A DNA stretch of 64,000 nt from Aliarcobacter butzleri (GTDB taxonomy: Bacteria > Campylobacterota > Campylobacteria > Campylobacterales > Arcobacteraceae): positions 1,302,001 through 1,366,000 of the forward strand of contig NZ_LT906455.1 in assembly GCF_900187115.1 (NCBI RefSeq). Reading direction: 5' to 3'. Position 1 is the first letter of the stretch. Each line of letters begins with the position of its first letter. This document shows, piece after piece, positions 3,342 to 49,479 of the stretch. The position numbers were made by a program, and so were the translations under genes. The notes beneath the pieces were generated by a model. The model saw nothing but the letters and a program-made list of their open reading frames with translations. It did no database searches and was not told the DNA's origin.

Positions 3342-5825
3342 TTAGAAACTCTCCCATTCACCATCATTGTTAGTTGCTTTATTTGAAGTAACAACTGTTT
3401 CTTTTTGTTTTTTTGATACTTTTTTTGACTCAACGATATTTACACTATTATCTTTTTTTTGTGATAAAGTTTTATTCATATCTCTAGCTGATACTTCATC
3501 TTTTCCTATAAATTCTTTTTCATTTGCATCACTTACAACCATTTTTGCAATCTCATCTGTAACAATAGCAACATCATGAGTTTGAGAAGAAACCATTGCA
3601 TTTTGTTGTGTTTGTCTGTCTAATTGATTTACAGCATCATTTATCTGCTCTATTCCAACTAATTGTTCTTTACTAGACATTTCAATATCTTGAATTAAAG
3701 TAATAGTTTGTTGAATATCTTTTGTTAATCCAACATAACCTTCAATCATATTTTTAGAGATATCTTTACCTTCATTTGCTTTTATTGTTGCATTTTCTAC
3801 TATAGATTTTATTTCACGTGCTGCTTCTGCACTTCTTGAAGCTAGATTTCGCACCTCTTGTGCAACAACGGCAAATCCTTTTCCAGCTTCTCCAGCAGTT
3901 GCTGCTTCAACAGCTGCATTAAGTGAAAGAATATTTGTTTGGAATGCAATATTATCAATAACTGAAATAGCATCATTTATTAAATTAACTTGATTGTTTA
4001 TTTCATCCATTGCATTCGTAGTCTTATTTGCTAGACTTTCACCTTGATTTACTGATTTTGTAACTTGATTTGATAAAGTAGCCATTTTAGAAATATTTTG
4101 AGTCGTATTTCTAATATTACTTGTAATCTCTTCAATAGCAGCAGCTGTTTCTTCCAAACTTGCAGCAGCTTCATTTGATGAAATATTTAATTTATTTACA
4201 TTTTCTAATAAAATATGAGAGCTATCTTCTAATGTTAAACCATTCTTTTTATTTTCTACAAGTAAATGATTTATTGTATCTGCTAAAGAGTTTATCTCTT
4301 TTGCAACTTCACCTTGAGGATTTTCTATTCTAGGTCTAAAGTCCATTTTTTTGTATGTTTGTAATACTTCATCAATTGCAACTAAATTATTATTTACTTT
4401 ACTTGAAATTAGAACCAACATCTCATTTAAAATATTTTTTAGTTCTTCTAAACTCTCATTTTCTGTTTTAGCTTCAATCCTATTATTTAAGTTTCCTTTA
4501 TTTATTTCTAAAACTACCTCTTTTACATTATTAATTAAAGCTTCATCTTGTTTTAAAAGTTTATTTGTTTTTTCAATATTTTCATTAACAAATTTACCCA
4601 TTATTCCAATTTCATCATTATTTTTGACTTCTATTTTTTCAACATTTTTAACTTCTTTATTTAAGTATTTAAAAAATGATAAAAGCCCTTCTTTAAATTT
4701 TTCTAATGGAAGAATTATCTCTTTTGTTATAAAAAATGAGATAAATGCAATCAAGACAATAGAAACAATCACAGCAATAATAACTATTCCTAAAATAATT
4801 GAAGATATTTTTTGATAAGAATTTTGTCTCATTATTTCAATATTTTTTTCAACATTATCGATATATACTCCTGTTCCAATCATCCATTTCCATTCTTGTA
4901 AACCATCAGCATAACCAATTTTGTCATATAATTTAGGATCATCTTTAGATTTTGGGAAATCAAAAAGAACAGTTCCTCCACCCTTTTTAGCAGCTTCAAT
5001 TAGATCTTTTATATAATAAACACCTTTTTTACTTTTATTCTCCATTAAATTTTTTCCAACCAAAGCAGGATTAACTGGATGCATTATATTTGTACCATCA
5101 TAGTCATATACAAAGAAATATCCATCTTGTCCAAATCTAATTTTTGAAATTTCTGCCAAAGCTTTAGCTTTTAATTCTTTTTCTTCATTATCTATATAAA
5201 CACCTGTCCCTATAATCCACTCATAAGGTTCAAATAGTCTTACATTTGATAATTTTTCTCTTGGAGGTTTTCCTGAAATAACTTGAGTATAAGGAACAAC
5301 TCCTTCTCCTTTTTCAAAAGCAGTTTTTATAAACTGTAAAACATGAGAACCAGTGTTTTTAGTTCCCTCTTTTTCTGGAGTTAAAGGTAATTTTAAAATT
5401 GTAGAATTTTTATCATAAACAAAAAAGTAATCATTATCTTGACCATATCTAACTGAACCAATTGCATCTAAAAGTACTTTTTTTAATTCTGCTTCTGGTA
5501 CTTTGTTTTTTTGATCTTCATAAATTTTTGTAATCATCGCAAATAAAAAATCAGTTTGTGATTTCAAATATGTAGCTTTTCTTGCTTTAACATTTTCAAT
5601 TTTTGATTCTTCATAAGCATCTTTTGCTATATTTACTGCAAATGTAGTATAGTTTTTCATCTCTTCAATATTAGTTTTAAATGCTCTTTCTTTATACTCT
5701 TCAATAGTTTGATTAGTCAAATTATTTACTTCGTAAATAGATTTTGTTGCAATAATTATAGATACAAGAACAATAGTAACTATTACAATAGCTAATAACT
5801 TTATTCTTATTGATAAATTACCCAT
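3342..5825 (-). CDS. Methyl-accepting chemotaxis protein with double cache sensor
   Basis: Inner-membrane chemoreceptor of 827 residues. A first membrane helix (about 8-27) is followed by a periplasmic sensor made of two cache units, each ending in the same motif: [10 protein letters not shown] (203-212) and [10 protein letters not shown] (314-323). A second helix lies at about 341-367. A helical linker leads to the cytoplasmic signalling domain. Its hairpin tip, which binds CheA and CheW, is clear from [17 protein letters not shown] through [13 protein letters not shown] (about 621-665). The ligand cannot be told; related cache receptors often bind small carboxylates. The C-terminal tail is long, charged and of low complexity. 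AAAGGGAG precedes the ATG. Confidence 0.95.
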
Positions 5826-6827: not shown

Positions 6828-6883
6828 TTTTTAACCTTTTTTTTTATATAATCTTGCGATTATAACGAAAAGGAACTAATTTT

Positions 6884-9502
6884 ATGTTAAATGTTTTTTC
6901 AAAAATTTTTGGTACAAGAAATGACAAAGAAGTAAAAAAATATAGAAAAAAAGCTGATGCCATAACAGCTTTAGAAAGTAAATACACAGATTTAAGTGAT
7001 GATGAACTAAAAAATGAGTTTCAAAAGCTAAAAGAACTTGTACAAAAAGGTGAAAAAACACTAGATAATGTTTTATTTCAATCATTTGCAATTACAAGAG
7101 AAGCTAGTCGTAGAGTTTTAAATATGCGTCCTTATGATGTACAACTTATTGGTGGTATGGTTTTACACGAAGGAAGAATCGCTGAGATGAAAACTGGTGA
7201 AGGAAAAACTTTAGTTGGGTCACTTGCTGTTTCTTTAAATGCATTAGAAGGAAAAGGAGTTCATGTTGTTACAGTAAATGATTATCTTGCTAGCAGGGAT
7301 GCAAATGAATTAAGACCTTTATATGAATTTCTAGGTTTTAGTGTTGGTGCTGTTGTTGGTGGATTAAAAGATGATGAGCAAAGAAGAGAACAATATGCTT
7401 GTGATATAACTTATGGTACAAATAACGAATTTGGATTTGATTATTTAAGAGATAATATGTGTTTTGATATCAAAGATAAAGTTCAAAGAGGACATAACTA
7501 CGTAATAGTTGATGAAGTCGACTCTATTCTAATCGATGAAGCAAGAACTCCTTTAATAATTAGTGGACCAACAAATCATAAAAATTCGAATTATTTAAAA
7601 GCAAATGAAATTGCTTTAAAATTAGAAAAAGGTGAATTAATAGAACCTAAAAGCGCAGCTGAAAAACCAATAACAACAGGTGATTTTATCGTTGATGAAA
7701 AAAATAGAGCTGTAACATTAACAGAACAAGGACATGAAGCTGTAGAAAAACTTTTTGGAGTTGATAATCTTTATTCTATTGAAAATGCTATGCTTTCTCA
7801 CTCTTTAGACCAAGCTTTAAAAGCAAACTATATTTTCAAAAAAGATGTTGATTATGTTGTAAAAGATAATCAAATCATAATAGTTGATGAGTTTACAGGA
7901 AGATTAAGTGAAGGAAGAAGATTTAGTGAAGGACTTCACCAAGCTTTAGAAGCAAAAGAAGGTGTTACAATTCAAGATGAATCACAAACTTTAGCAGATA
8001 TTACTTTCCAAAACTATTTTAGAATGTACAAAAAACTTGCTGGTATGACAGGAACTGCTCAAACAGAAGCTACTGAATTTGCTCAAATTTATAATTTAGA
8101 TGTTGTATCTATTCCTACAAATATTCCTGTAAAAAGAATTGATAAAAATGATTTAATTTATAAAAGTGAAAAAGAGAAATTTGAAGCTGTTTGTAATAAA
8201 ATCAAAGAACTACATGAGAAAGGACAACCTGTACTTGTAGGAACTGCTTCTATTGAAAAATCTGAAAAATTACATAAAATTTTAGTTGATAAAAAAATTC
8301 CTCACACAGTTTTAAATGCAAAACAACATGAAAAAGAAGGAAAAATCATCGCTGATGCGGGACAAAAAGGTGCAGTTACAATTGCAACAAATATGGCAGG
8401 GCGTGGAGTTGATATAAAACTTACTAAAGAAATCTTAGATTTAGGTGGTTTAGCAATCATTGGAACAGAAAGACATGAGTCTAGAAGAATTGATAACCAA
8501 TTAAGAGGAAGATCTGGAAGACAAGGGGATGTTGGTGAATCTCAATTTTATCTATCATTAGAAGATAATCTTTTAAGAATTTTTGGTAGTGATAGAATAA
8601 AAGGCATTATGGAAAGACTTGGAATTGAAGAAGGTGAGCATATTGAATCAAGAATGGTTACACGTGCAGTTGAAAATGCTCAAAAGAAAGTAGAATCTAT
8701 GCACTTTGAAAGTAGAAAACATCTACTTGAATATGATGATGTAGCAAATCAACAAAGAAAAGTTATCTATAGCTTTAGAAATGACTTACTAAAACCTGAT
8801 TATGATATAACTTCAAAAATTGATGAAAATAGAATTGAATATGTTCAAAATCTTTTAACTGAAGCAAATATAACTTCAGGAATGGCTGAAGACGATTTTA
8901 ACTATGAATTTATTGTAAATAGATTTTTAGAAGATTTACATTTTAAAATTAATGTAGAAGATATAAAAAAAGAGTCTTATGAGGAATTAGAAGAACATTT
9001 AATTTCTATATTAAAAGATGTTTATGATAAAAAAATGTCTGTAACAAGCCTTGAGCAAAAAAGTGAAATTGAAAGAATTTTATATTTACAAATACTTGAT
9101 AGTGCATGGAGAGAGCACTTATATGCGATGGATACATTAAAAACAGGTATTGGATTAAGAGGATATAACCAAAAAGATCCATTGGTTGAGTATAAAAAAG
9201 AGTCTTATAATATGTTTATTGAACTAATTGGAAATATAAAAAATGAAATCATAAAAATTTTATTTACAATTCAATTACAAAGTCAAGAAGATAAACAAAA
9301 AGAGCAAGAAGCACTAGCTAAAATGAAAGAGCAAATGGAAAAAAGTACAGAACATATAACTACAAATATTGCTCAAGAAGCTGTAAAAAATAGTGATAAA
9401 AAAATAGCTAGAAATGAACCTTGTCCTTGCGGAAGTGGCTTAAAATATAAACAATGTTGTGGAAAAAGTGGACCAAAAATTGGTTTAGCTGCAGGAAAAT
9501 AA
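6884..9502 (+). CDS. secA: Preprotein translocase ATPase SecA
   Basis: Motor ATPase that pushes unfolded preproteins through SecYEG. All parts are present in 872 residues: Walker A MKTGEGKT (about 100-107), the DEAD-type site VIVDEVDSI (about 206-214), the preprotein cross-linking domain, the helicase-like second ATPase domain with [12 protein letters not shown] and [16 protein letters not shown], the helical scaffold with [12 protein letters not shown], and a C-terminal zinc-binding tail with PCPCGSG and CCGK. The lipoprotein-permease gene follows after one base, so the two are probably co-transcribed. Confidence 0.98.
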
Positions 9503-10729: not shown

Positions 10730-13643
10730 TCATTATTATACTTTTACTATCTTCTTTTTCTAAATTATTTATATTATCAAAAAATCTCACTGGAGAATTA
10801 ATAACTCTTTTTGCAATATTTGATGGGATATTAAATGTATCTGTTGTAAGGTTTGTAGCTATTGTAGGATTATCTAAACTCCCATTGATATTTATTTTTG
10901 TTTCTACTCTATTTTCATCACCTAATATTATATAGTTTAGTACAGGAATTGCTCCAACTATATTTGCATAATCTTTGAAAAATATAAGGTTCATATTGAA
11001 ATTTATATTAGAATTTGTCAAATCAATATCTCCTTTTCCTTCAAAATCAATACCATTTCCAACAGTATTAAGTTTTACAATATTTATTAATCCTTTATCT
11101 TTACTATAGTTAAACTCTAAATCACCATCAGAAATTTTATAAGTTAATAAATTAAATCCAGGGTTTGTCGCCAATCCAACAACAGATGGAATCGCTAAAA
11201 ATGGATTTATAATAGCTGGTGAAGTTTGAATAAATAGTAAAATATTATTTAAAATAGATAAATTCGCAATACTACTATTTTTTAAAACAACTTTTCCATG
11301 TAAATCATTTATATTTCCAGTTGCAAAGAAGTGAACTTTTCCACCTAAAAAAATGTTTCTATTTGAAATTTTATTTAAGAAATCGGCACTAATATCAACT
11401 GCATAAAGTTCTAATTTTCCATTTGTGTCTCTAAAAACAACCTGTGTATCACCATATTTTATATAAGCAAATTTATTGTCTGGTCGAACTCTTAATTCAT
11501 AATTATCTGATACTATTTCAAACTCATCATTAATAACAATATTAGAATTTTTACCAATAATATCTATTTTTTTATATTTTGAAATATTTTCTTCATCTTC
11601 TGTATAATAGCTAACATCATACTCTTCTAAATATAAAGACAAATTATCTTTATCTAAAAATAAAATTAAATCTTGGTTTTTTGTATATATTTTTAAATCA
11701 TCAGCTTTATAATTTCCTATTAATTGTATCTCTTCAAGAGTTTTTCCATCTTTTTTTAAAGGAATATCTAAATCTTTTATAGTTGCTTCAAAATTTATAT
11801 CTCCATTTTCTATAACAACATTTGCATCTTTTATTTTATAATCTTTATTGTCTAAATTTAATTCACAATTGTCTAGATACAAATTTATATTTTCTTTTAA
11901 ATCATTTGCATTCATTTTTGTGTCAATAAAAAGTTTTAAATCTTTTAAATAAAGATTTGTTTTATCGTTAATTACTAACTTTATATCATCATTCAAGGCA
12001 AAAATTTCAATATCTTTATCTTTTATAGTTCCTTTTAAATCTATACTATTTATCTCTTTTTCATCTTTTTGAATAGGCAAATTTATATTTTTTAAAAAAG
12101 CATTAAAATTTATTTCATTTTCGTTTTTAATTTCTAAAGATATATTTCCATCTTTTATTGCATAAGTTTGAAAAAGTTTAGAATAAGGATAAATCTTTGA
12201 TATGTTTGCAATATCAATAAATATTGATTTATCAACTTTTATTTTTGTATCTAAATCTTTTAAATTTATTGTTGTCAGTGAACTAAAATCCATATCAATT
12301 AAACTATTTTTATCTTTTATTTCAAGAACTGCTGCACCATCATCATCTTTTACAATTAAAGAGTTTATATCAACAGTTCCTGTTGATTTTAAAGTATTTG
12401 TGTCTATACTTAAATTCGCATTTGCGTCTATCATATCTTCGTATAAAAAACTCGCATCATTTATATAAACTATATTTTCATCAAGAGTTACTTTTGCTTT
12501 TTTACTAAAAAAAGAGAAATTATCAATAGAAATTAAAGAATTATCTACTAAAAATTCGCCTTTTGTGCTCATTGGTTTATCAAGAGCATAAGGAAAGTTT
12601 AGAACTAAATTTGCATTTGTTATTCCGCTTTTTTGTTTTACAGGAAGATTTATTTCATAAGCTTTTAAAATACCTAAAATATTGTCATCAAGTTTGCTAT
12701 TAGTTTTTATATTTACTTCAACATTTCCATTTATCTCATCAGTTAAATTATGAATAGTTACAAAACTTCCTTCTATGTTTTTATCTTTAAATTTTGGTTC
12801 AATTAGATTAAAATGTAAATTATCATCTTTATAAGTTACATCAATACTTTTTGTAAAAATCTCATCAACATCTTTATGAAATCTTATTTTTCCATCTTTT
12901 ATATGAGCTTTTCCTTCGATTGAGTTTTGTACAAGTTCATTTTTCTTTAAATCATATTCACCATAAAGCCAGTCAAGTTTAAAATCACCTGTTACATTAT
13001 TATACATCCACTCATTTGCTTCTTGTGGTAAATCTAAATGTTCTTTTAAAAATTTCAAATTTTCAAAATATTTGCTTTCTAAATAAAATTTTATTTTTTC
13101 AGATGTTATATCAATATTTAAAGCTGTTTGGAAATTCTCAAAATACAAATTTCCAAAAAAATTTAATTCTTTAGAAAAATAATCTATTTTTGCTTTTCCA
13201 TCAAATAAAACTTTATAATCTTTTAAATATAATGAATTTAACTCAAAAAAAACTGTATTTGAAGAATCATTTATTTTAGATGAAATATTTATAAAATTAT
13301 TATCAAGATATAACTCTTTCCCGTTAAACCAGATATAAAATTGATTTTCATTTATTTTTAAACTCTCTATTTTTATGCTTTGGAAAAATTTTAAAATTTT
13401 TGGAAGTAACTGTATATCATTTTTTAAATTCTCTAAAGAGTTACTTTCTTTACTACTTTTTGACTTATATTCAACTTTTTCAATACTCAAAATGAGCTTT
13501 TTATCCATTTTTATATAAAATTGCGAGATTAAAAAATTAGAGAAAGAAAAAGAGTCGATTTTGATGCCAATATACAGAGATGAAAACATTAAAAATATAA
13601 AAAGAAATGATACAAATATTGCAATTTTAATGTTTTTTAACAT
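10725..13643 (-). CDS. Large AsmA/YhdP-like envelope protein
   Basis: Protein of about 970 residues with one N-terminal membrane anchor (KIAIFVSFLFIFLMFSSLYIG) and a long repetitive beta-rich body in which short strands alternate with charged turns. This is typical of the AsmA/TamB/YhdP group, which form lipid-conducting grooves across the periplasm. The C-terminal region has the AsmA-like pattern (GNGIDFEGKGDIDLTNSNI, then ILGDENRVETKININGSLDNP). The frame opens at 13661, but the ATG at 13643 has GAGGA upstream and gives a normal anchor, so I place the start there. Its 5' end overlaps the 5' end of the divergent mltG gene. The exact substrate is unknown. Confidence 0.75.
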   Translation of the reverse strand: MLKNIKIAIFVSFLFIFLMFSSLYIGIKIDSFSFSNFLISQFYIKMDKKLILSIEKVEYKSKSSKESNSLENLKNDIQLLPKILKFFQSIKIESLKINENQFYIWFNGKELYLDNNFINISSKINDSSNTVFFELNSLYLKDYKVLFDGKAKIDYFSKELNFFGNLYFENFQTALNIDITSEKIKFYLESKYFENLKFLKEHLDLPQEANEWMYNNVTGDFKLDWLYGEYDLKKNELVQNSIEGKAHIKDGKIRFHKDVDEIFTKSIDVTYKDDNLHFNLIEPKFKDKNIEGSFVTIHNLTDEINGNVEVNIKTNSKLDDNILGILKAYEINLPVKQKSGITNANLVLNFPYALDKPMSTKGEFLVDNSLISIDNFSFFSKKAKVTLDENIVYINDASFLYEDMIDANANLSIDTNTLKSTGTVDINSLIVKDDDGAAVLEIKDKNSLIDMDFSSLTTINLKDLDTKIKVDKSIFIDIANISKIYPYSKLFQTYAIKDGNISLEIKNENEINFNAFLKNINLPIQKDEKEINSIDLKGTIKDKDIEIFALNDDIKLVINDKTNLYLKDLKLFIDTKMNANDLKENINLYLDNCELNLDNKDYKIKDANVVIENGDINFEATIKDLDIPLKKDGKTLEEIQLIGNYKADDLKIYTKNQDLILFLDKDNLSLYLEEYDVSYYTEDEENISKYKKIDIIGKNSNIVINDEFEIVSDNYELRVRPDNKFAYIKYGDTQVVFRDTNGKLELYAVDISADFLNKISNRNIFLGGKVHFFATGNINDLHGKVVLKNSSIANLSILNNILLFIQTSPAIINPFLAIPSVVGLATNPGFNLLTYKISDGDLEFNYSKDKGLINIVKLNTVGNGIDFEGKGDIDLTNSNINFNMNLIFFKDYANIVGAIPVLNYIILGDENRVETKININGSLDNPTIATNLTTDTFNIPSNIAKRVINSPVRFFDNINNLEKEDSKSIIMK

Positions 13644-17095: not shown

Positions 17096-18040
17096 TTGAA
17101 TAATAAAACAATAGGAATTATTGGAGTTGGAAATGTAGGTTCAACATTAGCTTTCATTTTAGCTACAAATAATATCTGTTCAAATATACTATTAAAAGAT
17201 ATAAAAAACAATATTTCAGAAGCTATGGCACTTGATATTTCACAAGCTATGCAAGAAACAAATAGTAATACTAAAATTACTGCTTGTTTAAATAATGAAG
17301 ATTTCAAAGATTGTGATATTATTATTATAACAGCAGGAATAGCAAGAAAACCAAACATGAGTAGAGATGATTTACTCATTACAAATGCAAAAATTGTAGC
17401 TTCTGTTATGAATGATATATCAAAGAATAATCCAAACGCAATAATTATAATAATTTCAAATCCTCTTGATTCGATGGTTTATACAGCATTAAAATCTTCA
17501 AATTATCCTAAAAATAAAATTCTTGGAATGGCTGGAACTTTAGATAGTGCTAGAATGAGTTATTTTATAGCAGAAAAGCTAGGCTTTCCAAATGTTAACA
17601 TAAAAACTTCTGTTATTGGTGGACATGGAGATAGTATGGTTCCATTAATTGATTTTTCAACTGTTGATGGAAAAAAATTAAATGAAGTTTTATCTAAAGA
17701 AGATATAGATGATATTGTGATTAAAACAAAAAATGGTGGTGGACAAATTGTAAAACTATTAGAAACAGGTTCTGCATATTATGCTCCTGCTTATTCTACA
17801 ATTGCAATGATAGAAGCTATTTTAAATGATACGAAAAAATGTTTTGCATGTGCTACTATACTAAATGGAGAATATGGTTATAAAGATATAGTTTCTGGAG
17901 TGCCTGTTATTTTAGGAAAAGATGGTGTTGAAAAAATCATAGAATTAGAAATAAGTGATTTTGAAAAAGAACAATTTTCAAATTCTATTAATAGTGTTAA
18001 AGAATCAATAAATATTTTAGAAAATAATTTTTTCAATTAG
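17096..18040 (+). CDS. mdh: Malate dehydrogenase (LDH-like type)
   Basis: NAD-dependent malate/oxaloacetate oxidoreductase of 314 residues. The N-terminal Rossmann motif is GVGNVG. The substrate loop reads GIARKPNMSRDDL: an Arg in the specificity position marks malate rather than lactate use. The catalytic His is in VIGGHGDSMVP, and NPLDSM plus GMAGTLDSARM supply further conserved residues. The start is a TTG at 17096 with TTAAAGG seven bases upstream; there is no ATG close enough to use. Confidence 0.93.
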   Translation: MNNKTIGIIGVGNVGSTLAFILATNNICSNILLKDIKNNISEAMALDISQAMQETNSNTKITACLNNEDFKDCDIIIITAGIARKPNMSRDDLLITNAKIVASVMNDISKNNPNAIIIIISNPLDSMVYTALKSSNYPKNKILGMAGTLDSARMSYFIAEKLGFPNVNIKTSVIGGHGDSMVPLIDFSTVDGKKLNEVLSKEDIDDIVIKTKNGGGQIVKLLETGSAYYAPAYSTIAMIEAILNDTKKCFACATILNGEYGYKDIVSGVPVILGKDGVEKIIELEISDFEKEQFSNSINSVKESINILENNFFN

Positions 18041-22494: not shown

Positions 22495-22578
22495 GCCGCT
22501 ATGGTGAAATTGGTAGACACAAGGGATTCAAAATCCCTCGCCTTTGGTGTGTCGGTTCGAGTCCGACTAGCGGTACCA
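22495..22578 (+). tRNA. tRNA-Leu (anticodon CAA)
   Basis: An 84-nt class II tRNA with CCA encoded. The acceptor strands GCCGCTA and TAGCGGT pair with a terminal G-U. The anticodon stem AGGGA/TCCCT encloses TTCAAAA, giving anticodon CAA (reads UUG). The long variable arm and the T loop GGTTCGAGTCC are present. Its 3' 20 bases are part of the element's attachment site. Integration left this copy intact, with the displaced 3' fragment at 49458. Confidence 0.97.
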
Positions 22579-22580
22579 CT
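22559..22580 (+). repeat. attL core (left 22-bp direct repeat)
   Basis: The block running from GAGTCC to ACCACT covers the T-arm end, acceptor strand and CCA of tRNA-Leu plus two bases. An identical copy is at 49458-49479 and flanking bases diverge at once on both sides. It is the crossover site of the neighbouring integrase. Confidence 0.92.
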
Positions 22581-22756: not shown

Positions 22757-23974
22757 ATGGCAAAAATAGTTAAACCTCTTACTGATACGGAAATTAAGAA
22801 AGCTAAAGCAAAAGAAAAAGATTATAAATTAAGTGATGGAGAAAATTTATACTTAGTTGTAAAATCTAATGGTACAAAATTCTTTAGATTCGATTTTAGT
22901 TACACAAAGAAAAGAAAATCTATGAGTTTTGGTATTTATCCAGATATTTCATTAAAAGAAGCTAGAGAATTAAGAGAAAAAGCAAAAGAACAATTAAAAC
23001 AAAATATAAACCCTATTGAAGCTAAAAGCTCAAATTTTGGAAATATTTCAACTTTTAAATATATTACTGAGAAATGGCTCAAATTAATGACAAGCGAATG
23101 GAAACATGTAACTTACGAATTAAATGAAAATAGATTAAGAATGCATGTTTACCCTGCAATTGGAGATAAACCTATTTCATCAATAGAAATATTAGATATA
23201 TTAAATATTATTCAAAAATTACAAGAAAAAGAATATTTCGAAATTGCAGAAAGAATTTTAAATGTTATAGAAAGAATTTATAAATATGCAGTTACTTATG
23301 GATATACAAAACATAATATAATTGCAGATATTGATAAAAGAACTGTTTTTGCTAAAAAGATAGTTATCCATAGAGCAACTTTAACAAAAGAGAATGAGAT
23401 AAAAGAACTATTAAAAGATATAAAATCTTATGGAGAACTTTATAAAGCAGATATATCTACAATATATGCATTAAATATTGCTCCATATCTTGCATTAAGA
23501 CCTTATAACATTAGATTACTTGAATGGAATGAAGTAAATTTTGAAAAAGAATATTTAGACATACCAGCAAATAAAATGAAAACTAATAAAGATTTTGTTT
23601 TACCTCTATCAAAACAAGCTCTTGAAATATTAAAAACAATAAAACCATATTCTTTTGATAGAAGTAAATATGTATTCCCCTCGCCTACTTCAAATTTAAA
23701 ACCTTTTTCAGATGCAACATTAAATCACGCACTCATGAAACTTGGTTATAAAGATAAAATTACATCACATGGATTTAGAGCCATGTTTTCAACAATAGCC
23801 CATGAAAAAATAAAAGAACATGGATTTCATAGTGATATTATAGAATCTTGTTTAGCTCATGCAGAAACAAATAAAATTAAAGCTGCTTATAACAGAGAAT
23901 CAAAAATGAAATATTATGATGAAAAAAAAGGGTTAATGCAATGGTGGACTGATTGGTTAAATAAATTTAATTAA
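22757..23974 (+). CDS. int: P4-type tyrosine recombinase/integrase
   Basis: Site-specific recombinase of 405 residues that integrates and excises the element at the tRNA-Leu end. The N-terminal domain is the DUF4102-type arm-binding fold (KIVKPLTDTEIKKAKAKEKDYKLSDGENL, then FSYTKKRKSMSFGIYPDISLKEARE). A core-binding SAM-like domain follows at about 95-190. The catalytic residues are Arg in ALRPYNIRLLEW, His and Arg in SHGFRAMF, His in CLAHAE, and the nucleophile Tyr in AAYNRE. The gene reads away from attL with AACGGTA repeats upstream, which may let the protein repress its own promoter. Confidence 0.95.
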   Translation: MAKIVKPLTDTEIKKAKAKEKDYKLSDGENLYLVVKSNGTKFFRFDFSYTKKRKSMSFGIYPDISLKEARELREKAKEQLKQNINPIEAKSSNFGNISTFKYITEKWLKLMTSEWKHVTYELNENRLRMHVYPAIGDKPISSIEILDILNIIQKLQEKEYFEIAERILNVIERIYKYAVTYGYTKHNIIADIDKRTVFAKKIVIHRATLTKENEIKELLKDIKSYGELYKADISTIYALNIAPYLALRPYNIRLLEWNEVNFEKEYLDIPANKMKTNKDFVLPLSKQALEILKTIKPYSFDRSKYVFPSPTSNLKPFSDATLNHALMKLGYKDKITSHGFRAMFSTIAHEKIKEHGFHSDIIESCLAHAETNKIKAAYNRESKMKYYDEKKGLMQWWTDWLNKFN

Positions 23975-24007: not shown

Positions 24008-24167
24008 ATGTACATAATAAAACAACCAAATATTTTTTCAAAAAAAATATTCAAGGTAAGGTTTCAATATTACGAAGAATTATTTTATTAATCAGCGGAG
24101 ATAAATCAACTTAAATTGATTATATAAAAAAGCAAATGAAAATTTAAAGGAGCTAGATAATGAGTAA
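24008..24167 (+). pseudogene. Decayed HigB/RelE-like toxin gene
   Basis: Translated pieces match the phage-type addiction killer family: a start MYIIKQPNIFSK (24008), then a fragment VRFQYY, then in another frame RRIILLISGDKST (about 24073-24111), a TAA where the family has Gln, then IDYIKK, a shift in an A run, and ANENLKELDNE. About half of the middle is missing. The end overlaps the antitoxin start by 8 bases, as in intact modules of this type. At least one internal deletion, a nonsense change and frameshifts mean it cannot make active toxin. Confidence 0.65.
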
Positions 24168-24433
24168 ACTTGAAATTACAAATTTTGATATAGTACAATA
24201 CCTTGATGATAAAGAAGTAATAGCGGAATATTTGTCTCAAATATTAAGTGATGGAAATACATATGAATTATTAGAAACTTTAGGAAATATTGCTAAAGCA
24301 AAAGGTATGAGCCAATTAGAAAAAGATACTGAACTAAGTATATAAAACATTTGAAAAAGGTACAAAACCTAAATTTAAAACAATAAAAAAAGTATTGGAT
24401 TCTTTTGGTGTAATAATGCAAGTATTGGTTTAA
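24160..24433 (+). pseudogene. Broken HigA-like antitoxin gene
   Basis: The first 61 codons (24160-24345) match the N-terminus of the XRE-type antidote family (FDIVQYLDDKEVIAEYLSQIL, then ETLGNIAKAKGMSQLEKDT). The frame then stops at the point where the DNA-binding helix should follow. The C-terminal end of the family (FEKGTKPKFKTIKKVLDSFG) is readable in another frame from 24350 to 24433. A short deletion with a frameshift removed the recognition helix. AAAGGAG precedes the ATG, so the 61-residue peptide may still be translated. Confidence 0.72.
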
Positions 24434-24721: not shown

Positions 24722-24934
24722 TTAATGTAATTCAATAATATTTACTACACGTAGAAGCCAATTATTCCTATAAACAAAGCCCATAAAATCTATATATTTA
24801 GCAAAAGTTTTAAAATCATCATAAGTATAATAACCATAAGCTTCATAAGTAGATGTATAGTCATCTAATAAATCTATTGCTATATCTCCATACTTTTCAT
24901 TTATATGAAATCTAGTTAAAATTTCTTTTGTCAT
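24722..24934 (-). CDS. Small hypothetical protein, integron-cassette-like
   Basis: A 70-residue acidic, aromatic-rich soluble protein (DDYTSTYEAYGYYTYDDFKTFAKYIDFMGFVYRNNW) of no family I recognise. The ATG lies inside the end of an attC-like site (GTTAGATG), a placement often seen for the first codon of an integron gene cassette. There is no clear Shine-Dalgarno sequence, another trait of cassette genes. No second attC-like site was found after it, so the cassette may have lost its own site. Confidence 0.55.
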   Translation of the reverse strand: MTKEILTRFHINEKYGDIAIDLLDDYTSTYEAYGYYTYDDFKTFAKYIDFMGFVYRNNWLLRVVNIIELH

Positions 24935-25002
24935 CTAACGTTTGTCGTGAGCAATAATTTCCCCTCATGGTAAATTATTACTTTTCCACCTATTTCTTAG
25001 AT
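24933..25002 (-). repeat. attC-like recombination site 1 (70 bp)
   Basis: Read on the minus strand it begins ATCTAAG, ends CAAACGTTAGAT, and holds the imperfect palindrome GTAATAATTT/AAATTATTGC around an 11-base loop. The ends fit the integron R'' (RYYYAAC, one mismatch) and R' (GTTRRRY, perfect) boxes and pair 6 of 7. It directly follows the stop of the 184-residue gene, where a cassette attC should be. Confidence 0.65.
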
Positions 25003-25003
25003 A

Positions 25004-25558
25004 TTATGATTTGTTCCCCACCCATGATAATAATATTATTAGTATTAAATTGAATAATTGAACACCACCATACCTTAACCAATTATTCCATTCTATAGGA
25101 ATAAATGAAATCAAGATACCTAAAAACAGTAGAAGTATAAAAAAACCTCCAATCATATTCATAGCTTCACGTTTATCTTTAACAATTTCTGATGGAATTA
25201 AAATTATAACTATTATAATCCATGGAAGTAATCCAAAAAATATTTGTGAAATTATTGGATTTATAGATACTTCTAAACTTGAAAAAATATCTTTTTGTTT
25301 AATAACTAATTTTAAATTAGCAACGAGTTCTTTTGAGGTTTCAACTACAACACTATTTTTAGAATCCAATAAAGGTTCAATTTGAAGGAGTATGCTTGTT
25401 GCTCTTTCATAACGGTTTAATTCATTTGAAGCAGTTTGCCATTCATATAAAATAAATGTGAGTACAACTAATCCTAAAAAACTAAAAAATATAGCTAACC
25501 TTTTCCATGAAAAGTCAGTAACGAATTTTTCTACAAATTGAAATAATGGTTCTAGCAA
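25004..25558 (-). CDS. Hypothetical four-helix membrane protein in a cassette-like unit
   Basis: A 184-residue protein with four likely membrane helices: about 20-40, 105-124, 133-154 and 160-179. A soluble helical loop (about 42-100) lies between the first two. The start is a TTG with AGGA upstream; no ATG fits. It lies between two 70-bp attC-like sites in the orientation of a gene cassette. Function unknown; membrane proteins of this kind are frequent among integron cassettes, and some act in phage defence, but nothing here shows that. Confidence 0.6.
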   Translation of the reverse strand: MLEPLFQFVEKFVTDFSWKRLAIFFSFLGLVVLTFILYEWQTASNELNRYERATSILLQIEPLLDSKNSVVVETSKELVANLKLVIKQKDIFSSLEVSINPIISQIFFGLLPWIIIVIILIPSEIVKDKREAMNMIGGFFILLLFLGILISFIPIEWNNWLRYGGVQLFNLILIILLSWVGNKS

Positions 25559-25569
25559 TTTTTTTCCTT

Positions 25570-25639
25570 ATCTAACGTTTGAATTGAGAAATATTTGAGT
25601 CACATAGTCAAATATTTCTCCCCCAAAGTTTTGTTATAT
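25570..25639 (-). repeat. attC-like recombination site 2 (70 bp)
   Basis: On the minus strand it begins ATATAAC, ends CAAACGTTAGAT, and encloses a perfect 13-bp inverted repeat (GAGAAATATTTGA/TCAAATATTTCTC) around a 9-base loop. R'' and R' pair 6 of 7, and unequal unpaired bases between R and L boxes give the asymmetry expected of attC. It has the same length as, and the same 12-base right end as, site 1. Confidence 0.7.
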
Positions 25640-25642
25640 CTC

Positions 25643-25981
25643 TTATACGTCCAATCCATTTACTAAAATAGTAATGCTAGAGGAACATATAGTTTGCTCT
25701 TCTTCTTTTGTAATGTGAGGACAATTACAAGTATTATCTATTGTGTCTAATATATCGTTATGATATTGGTTAGATATCACTTTTTGAATTGTCTCATACA
25801 ACCATCTAAAACTTTCCTTTCCTGACGAAAATGTTCTTGATTCTACCATTGAAAAATTATTATTTGCATTATCAGAATAGACAGTACATGTATACTCAGA
25901 ATCTTTATTTTTTTCAATTTGTGCTTTAGCAATAAGACCATTTTTAGTTTTGAAATTTATGTGTTGATGGATTGTTGGCAT
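25643..25981 (-). CDS. Small hypothetical protein, cassette-like
   Basis: A 112-residue soluble protein without a known family. It opens with a predicted beta-sheet part (INFKTKNGLIAKAQIEKNKDSEYTCTVY). Two Cys-His pairs in CNCPHITKEEEQTICSS could bind a metal. AAAAGGAATAG precedes the ATG. The same frame stays open for about 50 codons upstream without a standard start, a leftover that may reflect an older longer gene. An attC-like site follows its stop by three bases, which marks it as the payload of a cassette. Confidence 0.55.
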   Translation of the reverse strand: MPTIHQHINFKTKNGLIAKAQIEKNKDSEYTCTVYSDNANNNFSMVESRTFSSGKESFRWLYETIQKVISNQYHNDILDTIDNTCNCPHITKEEEQTICSSSITILVNGLDV

Positions 25982-26126
25982 TTCTATTCCTTTTATGTAT
26001 ATTTTATATCTAAATATATAATTAAAGCTTAATTCACTCCATATTACTACTAACTCATTTTGAAAGGCTATACCTGACCAAATAATAAAATCACTAAGTG
26101 AATCAAGGTAATTACCTACTATAACA

Positions 26127-27227: not shown

Positions 27228-28310
27228 ATGATAATTTATTTAGACACTAATATTTTTTATAAAAATTGGTATTTTGATAATCCACATTTCAAATATTTAT
27301 TTCATTTCATTAATAATGAAGGACATACTTTATTAATATCTAAACTAGTAATTCAAGAAATAGAAAATATTAGAAATAGAGAAATAAAATCTACATTAGA
27401 AGATATAAGTAAGAGTATGGAGTTTCTTAATAAAAGGTTGTTAAATAATGTGAAGTTTGATGATACTGCAATAATTAATCAAGAATATGACTTTGAAAAA
27501 TTATTAAAAGAATTTATAAATTATTCAAATATTAGAATTCTTGATTACATTGATGTAAAACAAGAAGAAGTTGTAGAAAAAGCTTTATATTTTAAAAAAC
27601 CATTTCAAGAAGAAGAAAAAGGATATAGAGACACTATGATTTGGCTTTCTCTTTTAGATTTTATTAAAACTAATAACATTAAAAAAGACGTCATCTTTAT
27701 CTCTTCAAATAAAAATGATTTTTTTGAAAAAAAGAAAAAAACAATATCTTTTCATTCTGACTTATTAGAAGATATAAATAAAAAAGAGATAACAACAAAA
27801 ATAATTCCCTTTGAAACACTCTTTAGTTTTGTCAAAAATACTATTGATGAAGCACTCCATTCTTTTGACCATAGCAATCCAAACTTTGAACATTATTTAG
27901 AAGTTCTAGGGGAGGAGTATTTGGGAACACATGATTACAGAGGAGAAGTTTTTAACTTTAGATCAGGTGCCTTTACTATAAAATTTTCTCAAATAATTAA
28001 TGTTCATGTTGATATGTTTGAAGGTATGGAGGATCCAGAAGTATTAGGAGCTAAAAAATTAGATGAAGATAGTGTTTATGTAAATTTTAAATACAATTTA
28101 AGAAGAGTAACTCTTACCTTGGAAATCTCAAAAGAAGAATATTTTAAATATAAAGATGACATTTCAAATAAATTTTATGGTACTGAATTTCAAGAAGAAA
28201 CAGTTTTAATATCAACTATTATACGACCATATTTTGATGTCAGCTTCATATATGATACTTTGCAAGAAGAAGTAAAAGATTACTCTGTTGATTATCTATA
28301 TATAGGTTAA
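27228..28310 (+). CDS. PIN-domain ribonuclease-like protein (DUF4935 type)
   Basis: A 360-residue protein. The N-terminal 200 residues are a PIN-like nuclease domain: IIYLDTNIF (first catalytic Asp), SKLVIQEIENIRNRE (conserved Glu), then RDTMIWLSLLDFI (Asp) and VIFISSNKNDFF (last acidic cluster). These match the four-acid site of PIN enzymes that cut RNA. The C-terminal 150 residues form an unassigned, probably beta-rich domain. No antitoxin gene lies next to it, so it is more like a stand-alone DUF4935 protein than a VapC toxin. It sits among defence genes. Confidence 0.75.
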   Translation: MIIYLDTNIFYKNWYFDNPHFKYLFHFINNEGHTLLISKLVIQEIENIRNREIKSTLEDISKSMEFLNKRLLNNVKFDDTAIINQEYDFEKLLKEFINYSNIRILDYIDVKQEEVVEKALYFKKPFQEEEKGYRDTMIWLSLLDFIKTNNIKKDVIFISSNKNDFFEKKKKTISFHSDLLEDINKKEITTKIIPFETLFSFVKNTIDEALHSFDHSNPNFEHYLEVLGEEYLGTHDYRGEVFNFRSGAFTIKFSQIINVHVDMFEGMEDPEVLGAKKLDEDSVYVNFKYNLRRVTLTLEISKEEYFKYKDDISNKFYGTEFQEETVLISTIIRPYFDVSFIYDTLQEEVKDYSVDYLYIG

Positions 28311-28786: not shown

Positions 28787-30826
28787 TCATAATCCAGATA
28801 TAATCTTTTTACTGAATGGTGACAAATTATCAAAAAGTGCTATTTCCATTAATTTCTTTAACTTTTTTTCAGTTCCAAAAACATCATTATATTTACTTAT
28901 CTCGTTGGATATAAGAATAATGTCTTCCTGAGGTATACCTAAATCACTTAATATACGCTCATATCCATCTGCTGAATCAAAGTAAGATTCTATCATGTAA
29001 ATACTTTGAATAAATGCTCTATTTTTTGATTTGTTGAATAAATTCTTGCTATTAAATAATTCATAAATACCAACCATCTTCATCATTTTAAACTTTATAA
29101 ATTCATCTATTTGAAAAAGAGCATCAATAAAATTATTGATATCACTAACATTAGGATTATATTTTATTACGAATTTATTAATAACAGGTTTTAACTTACC
29201 TCCATTAATCATTAATGAATATACTGCATCAAAAATAAATTTATCTTCAGAAGCAAATGAGTAATTACTTGTTAATAAACCTCCTAAATATTTATTATCG
29301 CTTCGAAGGAGCTTGTATTTTATATCATTAATAACTTTCCATTCTTTTTCATGGCAGGTTATTTCATCATAAATATTGATAAAATTGTTAAGTAAATTAA
29401 TTTCAATTTCTGATTCGATAACCTCTGTCATTTTAATTCCAAATTTTGAGTCCAAAATTTCTTTTAAATCATGAATTCTTTTTTCTGGTTCACCATCTAT
29501 TGAAGATTTATCTAAATATAAAATCTCGTCCTCAGGACTATTAGTTTCTATTGTATCTACTTCATACAAAATCTTAAGGTCTATCCACTGCTCTGGATTA
29601 TAAAGGTCAAGTATTTTCTCATCAAATATTTGGATATTTCCTATTTGGGGATTCTGTGGATTTAAACGACCAACTCTGCCAATAAGATTATTCAATTCAA
29701 ATGTTCCACGTGGCGAATCATAAATTATTAGTTTATTTGTAGGCGTATTGATACCCTCCATTAATGTACTTGTACATAATATTGTATGGATACAACCATC
29801 AGGATTAGAATATTCATTTTCAATATATTTTCTTAGAAATAAGGGTGTTTTCCCATGATGAATGCCTATCCCCTTTTTTAAATAAATAGAATAGTACCAT
29901 TCAGGATGAATATTTTCAGATATCCATTGAATTATATCTTCATCATATTTGTATTGTTCATCTTCAGTATTTAATTCGTTTTTATCGAGGAATTTTTTTA
30001 TATTATTAGGAGAATTGAAGTATACGAATTGTTTATCTTTTAAAAATTCTAAATTATCAATAGTTTTAACAGGCTGTTTTTCAATGTTATTATAAACAAG
30101 ATTTAAATTTGTAATGAACTGCTCAATTTTTATATTACTCTTACCAAAATTTACACTCCTAATAAATGGTCCAAGTAACAATATCTTGCGTGATTTATTT
30201 ATTAAGTATTTATAGATATAATTCATTTTAATTATTCTGTCATTCGTATCTCTTGAAGATATTTCATACTTAAGTTTATAGATTTCGTCATATACTAGGA
30301 AATCGATATTATTGCTATTTATATATTCCTTAAATCTTTTTGTACTAATTCGTTCAGGTACTACAATCATGATTTTTTTAGCGACATGATTATATTGATC
30401 AAGTTCAGCTTCGGATGTAATTATAATAAATTCATCATTGAATAAATTAAAACACTTTCTACGTAACTCATTCATAAGAGATATTGTGGGAACAACAAAT
30501 ATAATATTTTCCAATAAAATACGATTTCGTGCTATAAACTCTAAAGCAATAAATGTTTTCCCAAAACTTGTTGGGGCACTTAAGAATAAATTATTCTCTT
30601 CTAATATATTTAAGCATTCAACTTGTTCATTTGTTAGAGTTATGCTATCATCTAATACAGACCTTTTTATCACATTACTCAATTTTGAAAAAAAAGTGTT
30701 GTTTCTTGAGTATATTGATAGATCGGTAAGATTCAACTCAGCCTCTGATATGTCATTACCACTATAAATATTCTTGAGGATATCATTCCTTAAAACATTC
30801 ATATTTGAATCAAATTTATTATGCAT
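28787..30826 (-). CDS. hamB: Hachiman defence helicase HamB
   Basis: Superfamily 2 helicase of 679 residues, partner of the HamA nuclease in the Hachiman anti-phage system. In family terms HamB surveys DNA and restrains HamA until damaged or phage DNA is met. Visible motifs are the Q-like LTNEQVECLNILEENN, Walker A SAPTSFGKT (about 87-95), Walker B LVYDEIYKL, motif III-like LLLGPFIRS, GIGIHHGKTPLFLR, motif V CTSTLMEGINTPTNK and motif VI LIGRVGRLN. The C-terminal 300 residues are helical. Its start overlaps the hamA stop by 8 bases, so the pair is translationally coupled. Confidence 0.85.
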   Translation of the reverse strand: MHNKFDSNMNVLRNDILKNIYSGNDISEAELNLTDLSIYSRNNTFFSKLSNVIKRSVLDDSITLTNEQVECLNILEENNLFLSAPTSFGKTFIALEFIARNRILLENIIFVVPTISLMNELRRKCFNLFNDEFIIITSEAELDQYNHVAKKIMIVVPERISTKRFKEYINSNNIDFLVYDEIYKLKYEISSRDTNDRIIKMNYIYKYLINKSRKILLLGPFIRSVNFGKSNIKIEQFITNLNLVYNNIEKQPVKTIDNLEFLKDKQFVYFNSPNNIKKFLDKNELNTEDEQYKYDEDIIQWISENIHPEWYYSIYLKKGIGIHHGKTPLFLRKYIENEYSNPDGCIHTILCTSTLMEGINTPTNKLIIYDSPRGTFELNNLIGRVGRLNPQNPQIGNIQIFDEKILDLYNPEQWIDLKILYEVDTIETNSPEDEILYLDKSSIDGEPEKRIHDLKEILDSKFGIKMTEVIESEIEINLLNNFINIYDEITCHEKEWKVINDIKYKLLRSDNKYLGGLLTSNYSFASEDKFIFDAVYSLMINGGKLKPVINKFVIKYNPNVSDINNFIDALFQIDEFIKFKMMKMVGIYELFNSKNLFNKSKNRAFIQSIYMIESYFDSADGYERILSDLGIPQEDIILISNEISKYNDVFGTEKKLKKLMEIALFDNLSPFSKKIISGL

Positions 30827-31991
30827 TTAATTCCTTCCATATATTATTGCTTTTTACAGAAAAGGAATTGAGATAATCTTGTTTGCTAATTATTGGCAAA
30901 ACAAATAAGAGGATATTATAATCCTTTTTTAACTTTGTTAATTTTTTATTCTTTCTAATAACATCTAAAATGTCTTCATAGTCTGTATAATCATCACAAA
31001 TTAAAAATAGAACCAAATTTTCTGTTACATTTTCATCTATTTCAATTATTTCATTTAGTTCATCAGTCTTAATATTTCTGAATAATTCAATTTTATGTGT
31101 AATGTTTTCCTCACAAACTTCATTATGGGCTTTAAGTGATTTAACAGCCCGATTAACTGCACTATCCAAATCACTGAAAAACTTTGCTTCCAAATAATAT
31201 ATTTCTTTTGTATCTTCAATGTATATAGTACCATCATTGCCATATACTGGCATTTTTGGAGATGTTTTAAATACTAGTTTTGGATAAATGTACTTTTTAA
31301 CTGATTTGTCAGATAAAAATTTACTTAGCATAATATGCATAAGAAATTCTCCAATGTCTCCATGTAAAGTAGTATGGGATGTATCAACACCTGTATTAGA
31401 TATAAATCCAATGCTTTTCAATGCATCGAAATATTTTTGCTTCTTTTGCTTATCAGTGTATTTTGTTTTTGGTGTATAGGTACTAGCCACTTTAAGTACA
31501 TTTTCAGTATTGAAAATTTTGTTATTGATTTCATTAAATAATAGTTCGTTCATATCAAATAGTTCTTCCCAACTGAAAAACTTCATTCTTATTTTATTTA
31601 AATCATCCTCTTTTTTATTATTAATAAAATCTTTCTCATAACCTTCTATCGTCAGCACTCTATAAAATGATTTTTTATCATATGTGTTATTTGACTTTAA
31701 GCCCAATTCTTCACAGATAGTATTTATTGTGTATTCAGATACAGATGAATACTGATAATTACTTGTAGTTTCATTATATGAAATATTACATACAGCATAC
31801 TCAGTTTGCTGTGCATCTCCATCGAAGTAACTAACAACAAAAAAAAGATGATTTTGTGTTCTATTATATCTATTATAAAAATCAGATACATTTTTAATTC
31901 TTTCTTCAATAGTGAAATTATAGGTTCCTCTTCTGGAAAATAATTTAAATACTGTATGCTGTATTGTGTAATGTATTAAGACTTTCATCAT
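30819..31991 (-). CDS. hamA: Hachiman defence nuclease HamA (DUF1837)
   Basis: The 390-residue effector of Hachiman. An N-terminal part of about 190 residues of unknown fold precedes the DUF1837 nuclease core: HGDIGEFLMHIML (Glu helix), PVYGNDGTIYI (catalytic Asp), YYLEAKFFSDL (E-x-K). These fit the PD-(D/E)XK site known in HamA. It is first in a two-gene unit with hamB, the usual order. The frame begins ATGATG (31991); the second ATG is equally well placed after AAAGGT. Established: HamA degrades DNA when released by HamB. Inferred: that this copy is active. Confidence 0.83.
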   Translation of the reverse strand: MMKVLIHYTIQHTVFKLFSRRGTYNFTIEERIKNVSDFYNRYNRTQNHLFFVVSYFDGDAQQTEYAVCNISYNETTSNYQYSSVSEYTINTICEELGLKSNNTYDKKSFYRVLTIEGYEKDFINNKKEDDLNKIRMKFFSWEELFDMNELLFNEINNKIFNTENVLKVASTYTPKTKYTDKQKKQKYFDALKSIGFISNTGVDTSHTTLHGDIGEFLMHIMLSKFLSDKSVKKYIYPKLVFKTSPKMPVYGNDGTIYIEDTKEIYYLEAKFFSDLDSAVNRAVKSLKAHNEVCEENITHKIELFRNIKTDELNEIIEIDENVTENLVLFLICDDYTDYEDILDVIRKNKKLTKLKKDYNILLFVLPIISKQDYLNSFSVKSNNIWKELNA

Positions 31992-32411
31992 ATACCTTTA
32001 ATTTATAAACTTGTATCAAATATTATCTTTGTAAATTTAACGTTAAATGAATTGCCACAGGGTAATTATCTGCTCCACTGTTTTTTATGTCAAACATCAT
32101 ATACTTTTGTTATCTAGATACTTAACAAACAATTATAATACTATTTTAAAATAAATATATATGTTCTGAATCTAAATACAGTTGATAATCATATAAAATT
32201 GCTTCTTAATTTTAAAATAAATAAGACACTAATATGCCAAAAATTGAACAACCTATATATATTAAAAATCAAAAAAATGACCTATTATGTTGAAAACTAA
32301 TACTTTTAAATAATAGTTTGAATGATAGAAATAATAATATATATATTTTAGAAATATTTCAGAAATTTACATACTATTATTTAATTTTTTCACAAAATTG
32401 AATATATCTTA
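31992..32411. other. Gene-free stretch upstream of hamA
   Basis: Contains the hamA promoter region and the palindrome ATTTAACGTTAAAT (about 32036-32049). The rest is AT-rich with no supported gene. It also separates the cargo block from the transfer genes. Confidence 0.5.
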
Positions 32412-49457: not shown

Positions 49458-49479
49458 GAGTCCGACTAGCGGTACCACT
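49458..49479 (+). repeat. attR core (right 22-bp direct repeat)
   Basis: Identical to the 22-bp left copy. Upstream bases do not continue the tRNA, so this is the displaced tRNA 3' end left by integration, not a second gene. Confidence 0.92.

Follow-up and report, generated by a model that had tools for sequence, protein, structure and literature searches.

Two integron cassettes, very probably a small CALIN, in the cargo of a tRNA-Leu element of Aliarcobacter butzleri

Background

Two attC-like hairpins lie directly behind small genes in the chromosome of Aliarcobacter butzleri with no integron integrase (IntI) beside them, and the question raised by this locus is whether they belong to genuine integron gene cassettes and, if so, how such cassettes could have come to be there. 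In integrons, the bottom strand of an attC site folds to a bulged hairpin and IntI recombines within its R' box. The window, by which we mean the whole 64-kb stretch of DNA analysed, corresponds to G000:C1:1302001-1366000 of a 2.35-Mb genome, and positions below are those of the window unless a contig or another stretch is named. An earlier note on this DNA had proposed that it carries a CALIN (a cluster of attC sites lacking integrase). Under IntegronFinder 2 a CALIN comprises a minimum of two attC sites, and CALINs are overall about as frequent as complete integrons (2961 versus 2760; PMC9024848). The earlier note also took integrons to be little known in the Campylobacterota, which is overstated: the phylum is already among those listed as integron-bearing (PMC8618304), CALINs have been reported from Sulfurovum NBC37-1 and Sulfurimonas autotrophica (PMC10295459), and we find IntI (TIGR02249) above its curated cut-off in 34 of 397 Campylobacterota genomes, several of which belong to the same family as the source genome and none to the same genus. 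Text searches for integrons together with Arcobacter or Aliarcobacter turned up no description of such sites among the titles and abstracts listed.

Identity of the attC sites

Our training set was obtained by scanning 20 stretches around IntI genes of Campylobacterota for units of R'', hairpin and R'. A DNA profile (nhmmer) built from nine array attC sites near IntI in other Campylobacterota, with the window sequence excluded, recovers dozens of sites in loci with IntI; out of the 64 kb of the window it selects only 25571-25638 (E = 5.7e-8) and 24934-24988 (E = 3.9e-7). Their scores of 30.3 and 30.0 bits compare with a top score of 11.1 bits among 100 shuffles of the whole island, and chance word matches can be rejected as the origin of the sites since these scores lie so far above the shuffles. 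The two 70-bp attC-like sites that had been proposed from inspection are thus real, being the only ones picked out by a profile that had never seen them.

A covariance model, R1, was made on the bottom strand from 49 array attC sites near IntI, its '+' matches corresponding to cassettes that read on the minus strand. RNAalifold folds these 49 sites into three stems, one formed by the R boxes, an L stem of 3 bp and a variable stem of 9 bp, and nine of the pairs covary; 98.3% of the cells of the alignment are paired, two-sided changes affect 101 cells (versus 29 in shuffles), and pairing drops to 38-51% when the structure is slid along the alignment. The 21 genomes of the genus without any R1 match act as an approximate negative control. 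Within the window, cmsearch with R1 matches both sites over their full length, that is, over the whole imperfect attC hairpin of L boxes, unpaired spacers and variable stem, at 54.7 bits (E = 1.2e-10) for the site that we call B and 46.0 bits (E = 1.9e-8) for site A. A covariance-model search of the kind suggested earlier as a check, with R1 as the model, therefore places both well above background, contrary to the outcome that the earlier note had named as refuting its proposal, and we conclude that sites A and B are genuine attC sites, neither of which matches any Rfam family.

On the minus strand, site B (25570-25639) begins with the R'' box ATATAAC at 25639-25633 and closes with the R' box GTTAGAT at 25576-25570, while site A (24933-25002) begins with ATCTAAG and closes with GTTAGAT at 24939-24933, the span from R'' to R' being 70 bp in each. 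As had been noted, the two share their right end: exact copies of CAAACGTTAGAT occur at 24933-24944 and 25570-25581, both on the minus strand and nowhere else in the 2.35-Mb genome, and the R' box is a perfect GTTRRRY in both. The R'' boxes, previously described as near-perfect, are each one base off the RYYYAAC consensus, and members of IntI-associated arrays often deviate similarly. Folding into hairpins is likewise borne out on both strands, with z scores against dinucleotide shuffles of -5.9 (plus) and -4.9 (minus) for 25570-25639, and of -2.7 (plus) and -4.4 (minus) for 24933-25002.

The two sites differ in their state of preservation. Site B is close to the consensus of Campylobacterota attC, and attC sites from plasmids of Aliarcobacter, as well as from a same-family genome that has IntI, match it at 87-88% identity over about 67 nt. 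Site A has kept its R' half and decayed in its R'' half: 25 bases on the R' side (TAACGTTTGTCGTGAGCAATAATTT) are identical to part of an attC near IntI in another genome of the same family (L052:8808-8877, genome G203). The extrahelical bases seen in members of IntI arrays look altered in site A, and one base is inserted there in site B. Because its R'' half has drifted (ATCTAAG, with changed extrahelical bases), site A is probably weak or dead as a recombination site.

Cassettes and their genes

Read along the minus strand, the locus consists of a 112-aa gene (25981-25643), three bases, site B, a 184-aa gene (25558-25004), one base and site A, such that the stop codons end three bases (25643) and one base (25004) before the respective R'' box, the spacing described in the earlier note. 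The 184-aa gene lies exactly between the R' box of B and that of A, and together with site A it makes up a complete cassette (cassette 2, 24939-25575; about 637 bp), bounded by the G^TT cross-over points of both sites. The 112-aa gene and site B are the other cassette (cassette 1). Its upstream edge may be marked by TTTAGAT at 26008-26014 (minus strand), possibly a decayed R' core, where homology with stretch L128 ends at 26008; this motif is suggestive only, being a likely word in AT-rich DNA. In L128 itself, the sequence TAACAAATCAGTTCGAATGTTATAC (9301-9325), which precedes the cassette gene, resembles an attC from which the entire stem has been deleted and the outer ends joined.

Neither cassette protein has a match in Pfam, PHROGs or PADLOC, and searches of plasmids, phages and viral contigs returned nothing for either. 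The product of the 184-aa gene looks, from hydrophobic stretches in its sequence, like a membrane protein; no close relative was found in 397 genomes of the phylum, in plasmids or in genome contigs, and one candidate at E = 8e-4 contains internal stop codons and was treated as chance.

The earlier description of small unrelated genes in one orientation holds for the 112-aa and 184-aa genes and fails for the 70-aa ORF behind site A (24722-24934, minus strand), which is an in-frame fragment of a HipA gene. Residues 7-50 of this ORF are 88.6% identical to residues 238-281 of the 331-aa HipA of the Arcobacter cloacae plasmid pACLO, the remaining parts of HipA are absent, and no attC follows it. 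Its candidacy as a third cassette gene was ruled out accordingly, as a HipA remnant. The ATG within the end of site A, which had been read as a cassette feature, opens this fragment and so is not the usual start codon of a cassette.

Further traces of the same kind of site occur at a distance. A strongly decayed attC of 56 nt, with most of its stem gone, lies on the minus strand at 32035-32090, between the conserved backbone of the carrier element described below and its hamAB genes, and 6.4 kb from sites A and B; nhmmer gives it 17.6 bits (against the best of 11.1 bits in the 100 island shuffles), cmsearch only 19.6 bits (E = 0.09), and its folding is no better than that of shuffles. A lone intact attC (51.4 bits) is present 412 kb from the window sites at G000:C1:914376-914443 (L078 8377-8444), flanked by genes for an HTH and a cupin protein near guaA, in a stretch that is variable among species; an empty counterpart sought in the genus gave no precise cassette borders.

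The carrier element

The suggestion that the cassettes are carried by a mobile element is well founded: they lie in a 26.9-kb integrative element inserted in tRNA-Leu(CAA) (22559-49479), bounded by 22-bp direct repeats, GAGTCCGACTAGCGGTACCACT, at 22559-22580 (the 3' end of the tRNA gene) and 49458-49479. The element encodes a tyrosine integrase (22757-23974) with an Arm-DNA-bind_3 domain, a ParA-like protein, a Lin1244-type protein and a TraG/TraD-like ATPase that scores just under the Pfam cut-off. A possible relaxase is a 547-aa protein containing the motif PHFHF; it matches no family, and a relaxase-like query against genome contigs yielded no confirmed relative. Three other species of the genus have sister elements, recognised by relatives of this protein at 83-91% identity, and from about 32439 rightwards the backbone is 85-90% identical to the elements of those species, their cargo being different. 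The sister-element stretches L124 and L127 also show the integrase, with a differing stretch in between. No precise empty site was found in the sister elements because their cargo is wholly different.

The variable cargo stretch here comprises the cassettes, a Hachiman-type defence pair and a PIN-domain gene. The pair, hamB-hamA (28787-31991, minus strand), is identified by Pfam PF08878 (HamA, 101 bits) and PADLOC (HamB1 240 bits, HamA1 41 bits). We considered hamAB as a possible cassette and found this unsupported, since no attC lies behind hamB and the plasmid relatives of HamA are limited to Enterococcus raffinosus (41% identity). The gene with a PIN_12 domain (27228-28310, plus strand) is located between the cassettes and the HamAB pair and points the other way. 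Closer to the integrase gene, 24160-24345 (plus strand) holds an HI1420-type addiction-module antidote gene that looks truncated (profile positions 1-56 of 90) and is perhaps frameshifted.

Distribution of integrase and attC sites

The lack of IntI, initially noted for the window, extends to the whole genome, where the best TIGR02249 match reaches 54.3 bits against a cut-off of 265, and to the genus, where none of 31 genomes has the gene. attC sites of the same family (E <= 0.01) are present in 10 of these 31 genomes, several of them on plasmids; the search for relatives recommended earlier found exact copies of the shared end only at the two window sites within the source genome and the wider attC family across the genus. 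Plasmids with this attC family include those of A. faecis (NZ_CP053838.1), A. butzleri and A. cryaerophilus ATCC 43158 (NZ_CP032824.1), and lone attC sites are scattered in other Aliarcobacter genomes too. At the level of the bacterial family, attC of this kind occurs in 55 of 104 genomes, and genomes of the same family carry IntI with matching attC arrays. The A. faecis plasmid pAFAEC (L129) additionally bears attC-like sites of 55-57 nt with a different stem, at 5158-5212, 6867-6921, 11851-11906 and 17114-17170; these short sites score 25-36 bits with R1 and possibly represent a second attC subfamily.

Origin of the cassettes

The attC pair, the cassette anatomy and the missing IntI all hold, and the original proposal of a CALIN stands with them. 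Sites 24933-25002 and 25570-25639 lie well within the 4 kb allowed between the two or more attC sites of a CALIN, integrase is lacking in the genome and in the 31 genomes of the genus, and the locus has no IntI gene with an adjacent attI such as defines a complete integron. We consider it very probable that 24933-26014 (minus strand) is a small CALIN, namely two cassettes stranded in the cargo of the tRNA-Leu element that were mobilised by an IntI from another cell. Counting against this reading, the two clear sites are only the minimum for a CALIN, site A has an imperfect R'' box and extrahelical bases that look altered, the 184-aa gene turned up in no other place and so gives no sign of having moved by itself, and the sister elements offered no precise empty site.

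How the cassettes arrived is a matter on which two accounts compete. As an alternative to a piece of an array, they may have been inserted singly and off-target, by a transient IntI acting at non-attI sites, one of them inside hipA. This variant has a real chance of being correct, if a somewhat less than even one. In its favour, homology to HipA sets in no more than about 15 bp from the R' core of site A, the remnant at 32035 stands 6.4 kb from the others, and lone attC sites are scattered both in this chromosome (914376-914443) and in other Aliarcobacter genomes; however, the 5' part of hipA is missing on the other side of the cassettes, and no empty site was found that shows a clean insertion.

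A second alternative is that the genes at 24722, 25004 and 25643 form a fixed operon whose repeats are regulatory, an arrangement for which their shared orientation and short spacing might speak, yet which the history of cassette 1 renders highly improbable. Among the 397 genomes, a relative of the 112-aa protein (60% identity) occurs in just one other, from a different family (G340:C62:15356-15685), where it is a single gene with its own attC (68.6 bits) 9 nt behind the stop codon and with neighbours unlike those in the window. The DNA block common to both copies (25573-26008), consisting of gene plus attC, reaches to the R' core of site B on one side; on the other it stops no more than about 5 bp from the other copy's upstream core. 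Gene and attC thus occur as a unit in unrelated places in the case of cassette 1, cassette 2 being without a known relative. The 112-aa and 184-aa genes occur together in no genome of the 397 other than the source genome, and the 70-aa ORF is a HipA fragment. As the relative of the 112-aa gene has its own attC, other neighbours and a host from another family, there is no fixed operon, and the finding of three genes always kept together, which the earlier note had named as grounds for abandoning its proposal, did not materialise.

Finally, the sites might be terminators of transcription, or hairpins of another sort with a mere resemblance to attC, and one could cite for this their position right behind genes in AT-rich DNA. 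This idea is refuted for practical purposes by the nine-site profile and the covariance model, and is further contradicted by stems without a T tract behind them, by R boxes and spacers conserved outside the main stem, by the occurrence of the same site family in arrays near IntI, and by the lack of any other intact hairpin in the window that the profile matches.

Returning to the CALIN reading, we infer that the movement of these cassettes depended on an IntI from a different cell; the gene is present in related Arcobacteraceae and elsewhere in the Campylobacterota, which are potential suppliers. The cassettes probably entered while the element resided in an IntI-bearing host or met a transient IntI, and they may have done so as a piece of an array that later lost its IntI end. 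With no IntI in the cell unless one comes in, they are now immobile save as passengers of the element, and the sites are decaying, site A in its R'' half and the remnant at 32035 in most of its stem.

Relation to known systems

The locus resembles CALINs as delimited by IntegronFinder 2.0 (PMC9024848) in having two attC sites within 4 kb, in one orientation and with small unrelated genes, in a genome without IntI; it differs from the typical case in that it sits in a tRNA-inserted element, its sites are partly decayed and one neighbour is a gene fragment. With the chromosomal integrons of Campylobacterota, which combine IntI with arrays (e.g. genomes G203, G252 and G390), it shares a single attC family in both sequence and covarying structure, whereas here there is no IntI, no attI and two cassettes rather than an array. 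The same attC family is found on the Aliarcobacter plasmids pAFAEC and p83_DSM_105473 and on that of A. cryaerophilus ATCC 43158, where its neighbours are small genes, hypothetical or defence-like (one encodes a Shedu nuclease), and whole-genome searches of two of the three hosts likewise found no IntI; the differences lie in the plasmid location and in the at least four strong sites that pAFAEC has in one stretch. The arrangement is of a known kind, an ordinary CALIN, and what is new is its recurrence across the genus without a detected integrase.

A more far-reaching picture, which we put forward as rather unlikely, would be that Aliarcobacter keeps no IntI and is regularly seeded with cassettes through elements and plasmids, their mobility depending on the IntI of other Campylobacterota, and that cassettes supplied part of this element's cargo bay, hamAB perhaps among them.

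Conclusions

One well-defined attC family spans the Campylobacterota, and integron cassettes still arrive, by way of mobile elements and plasmids, in a genus of which 31 genomes contain no integron integrase. Since the published set of taxon-specific attC models includes none for the Campylobacterota (PMC8352920), a model such as R1 would allow such cassettes to be found and traced.
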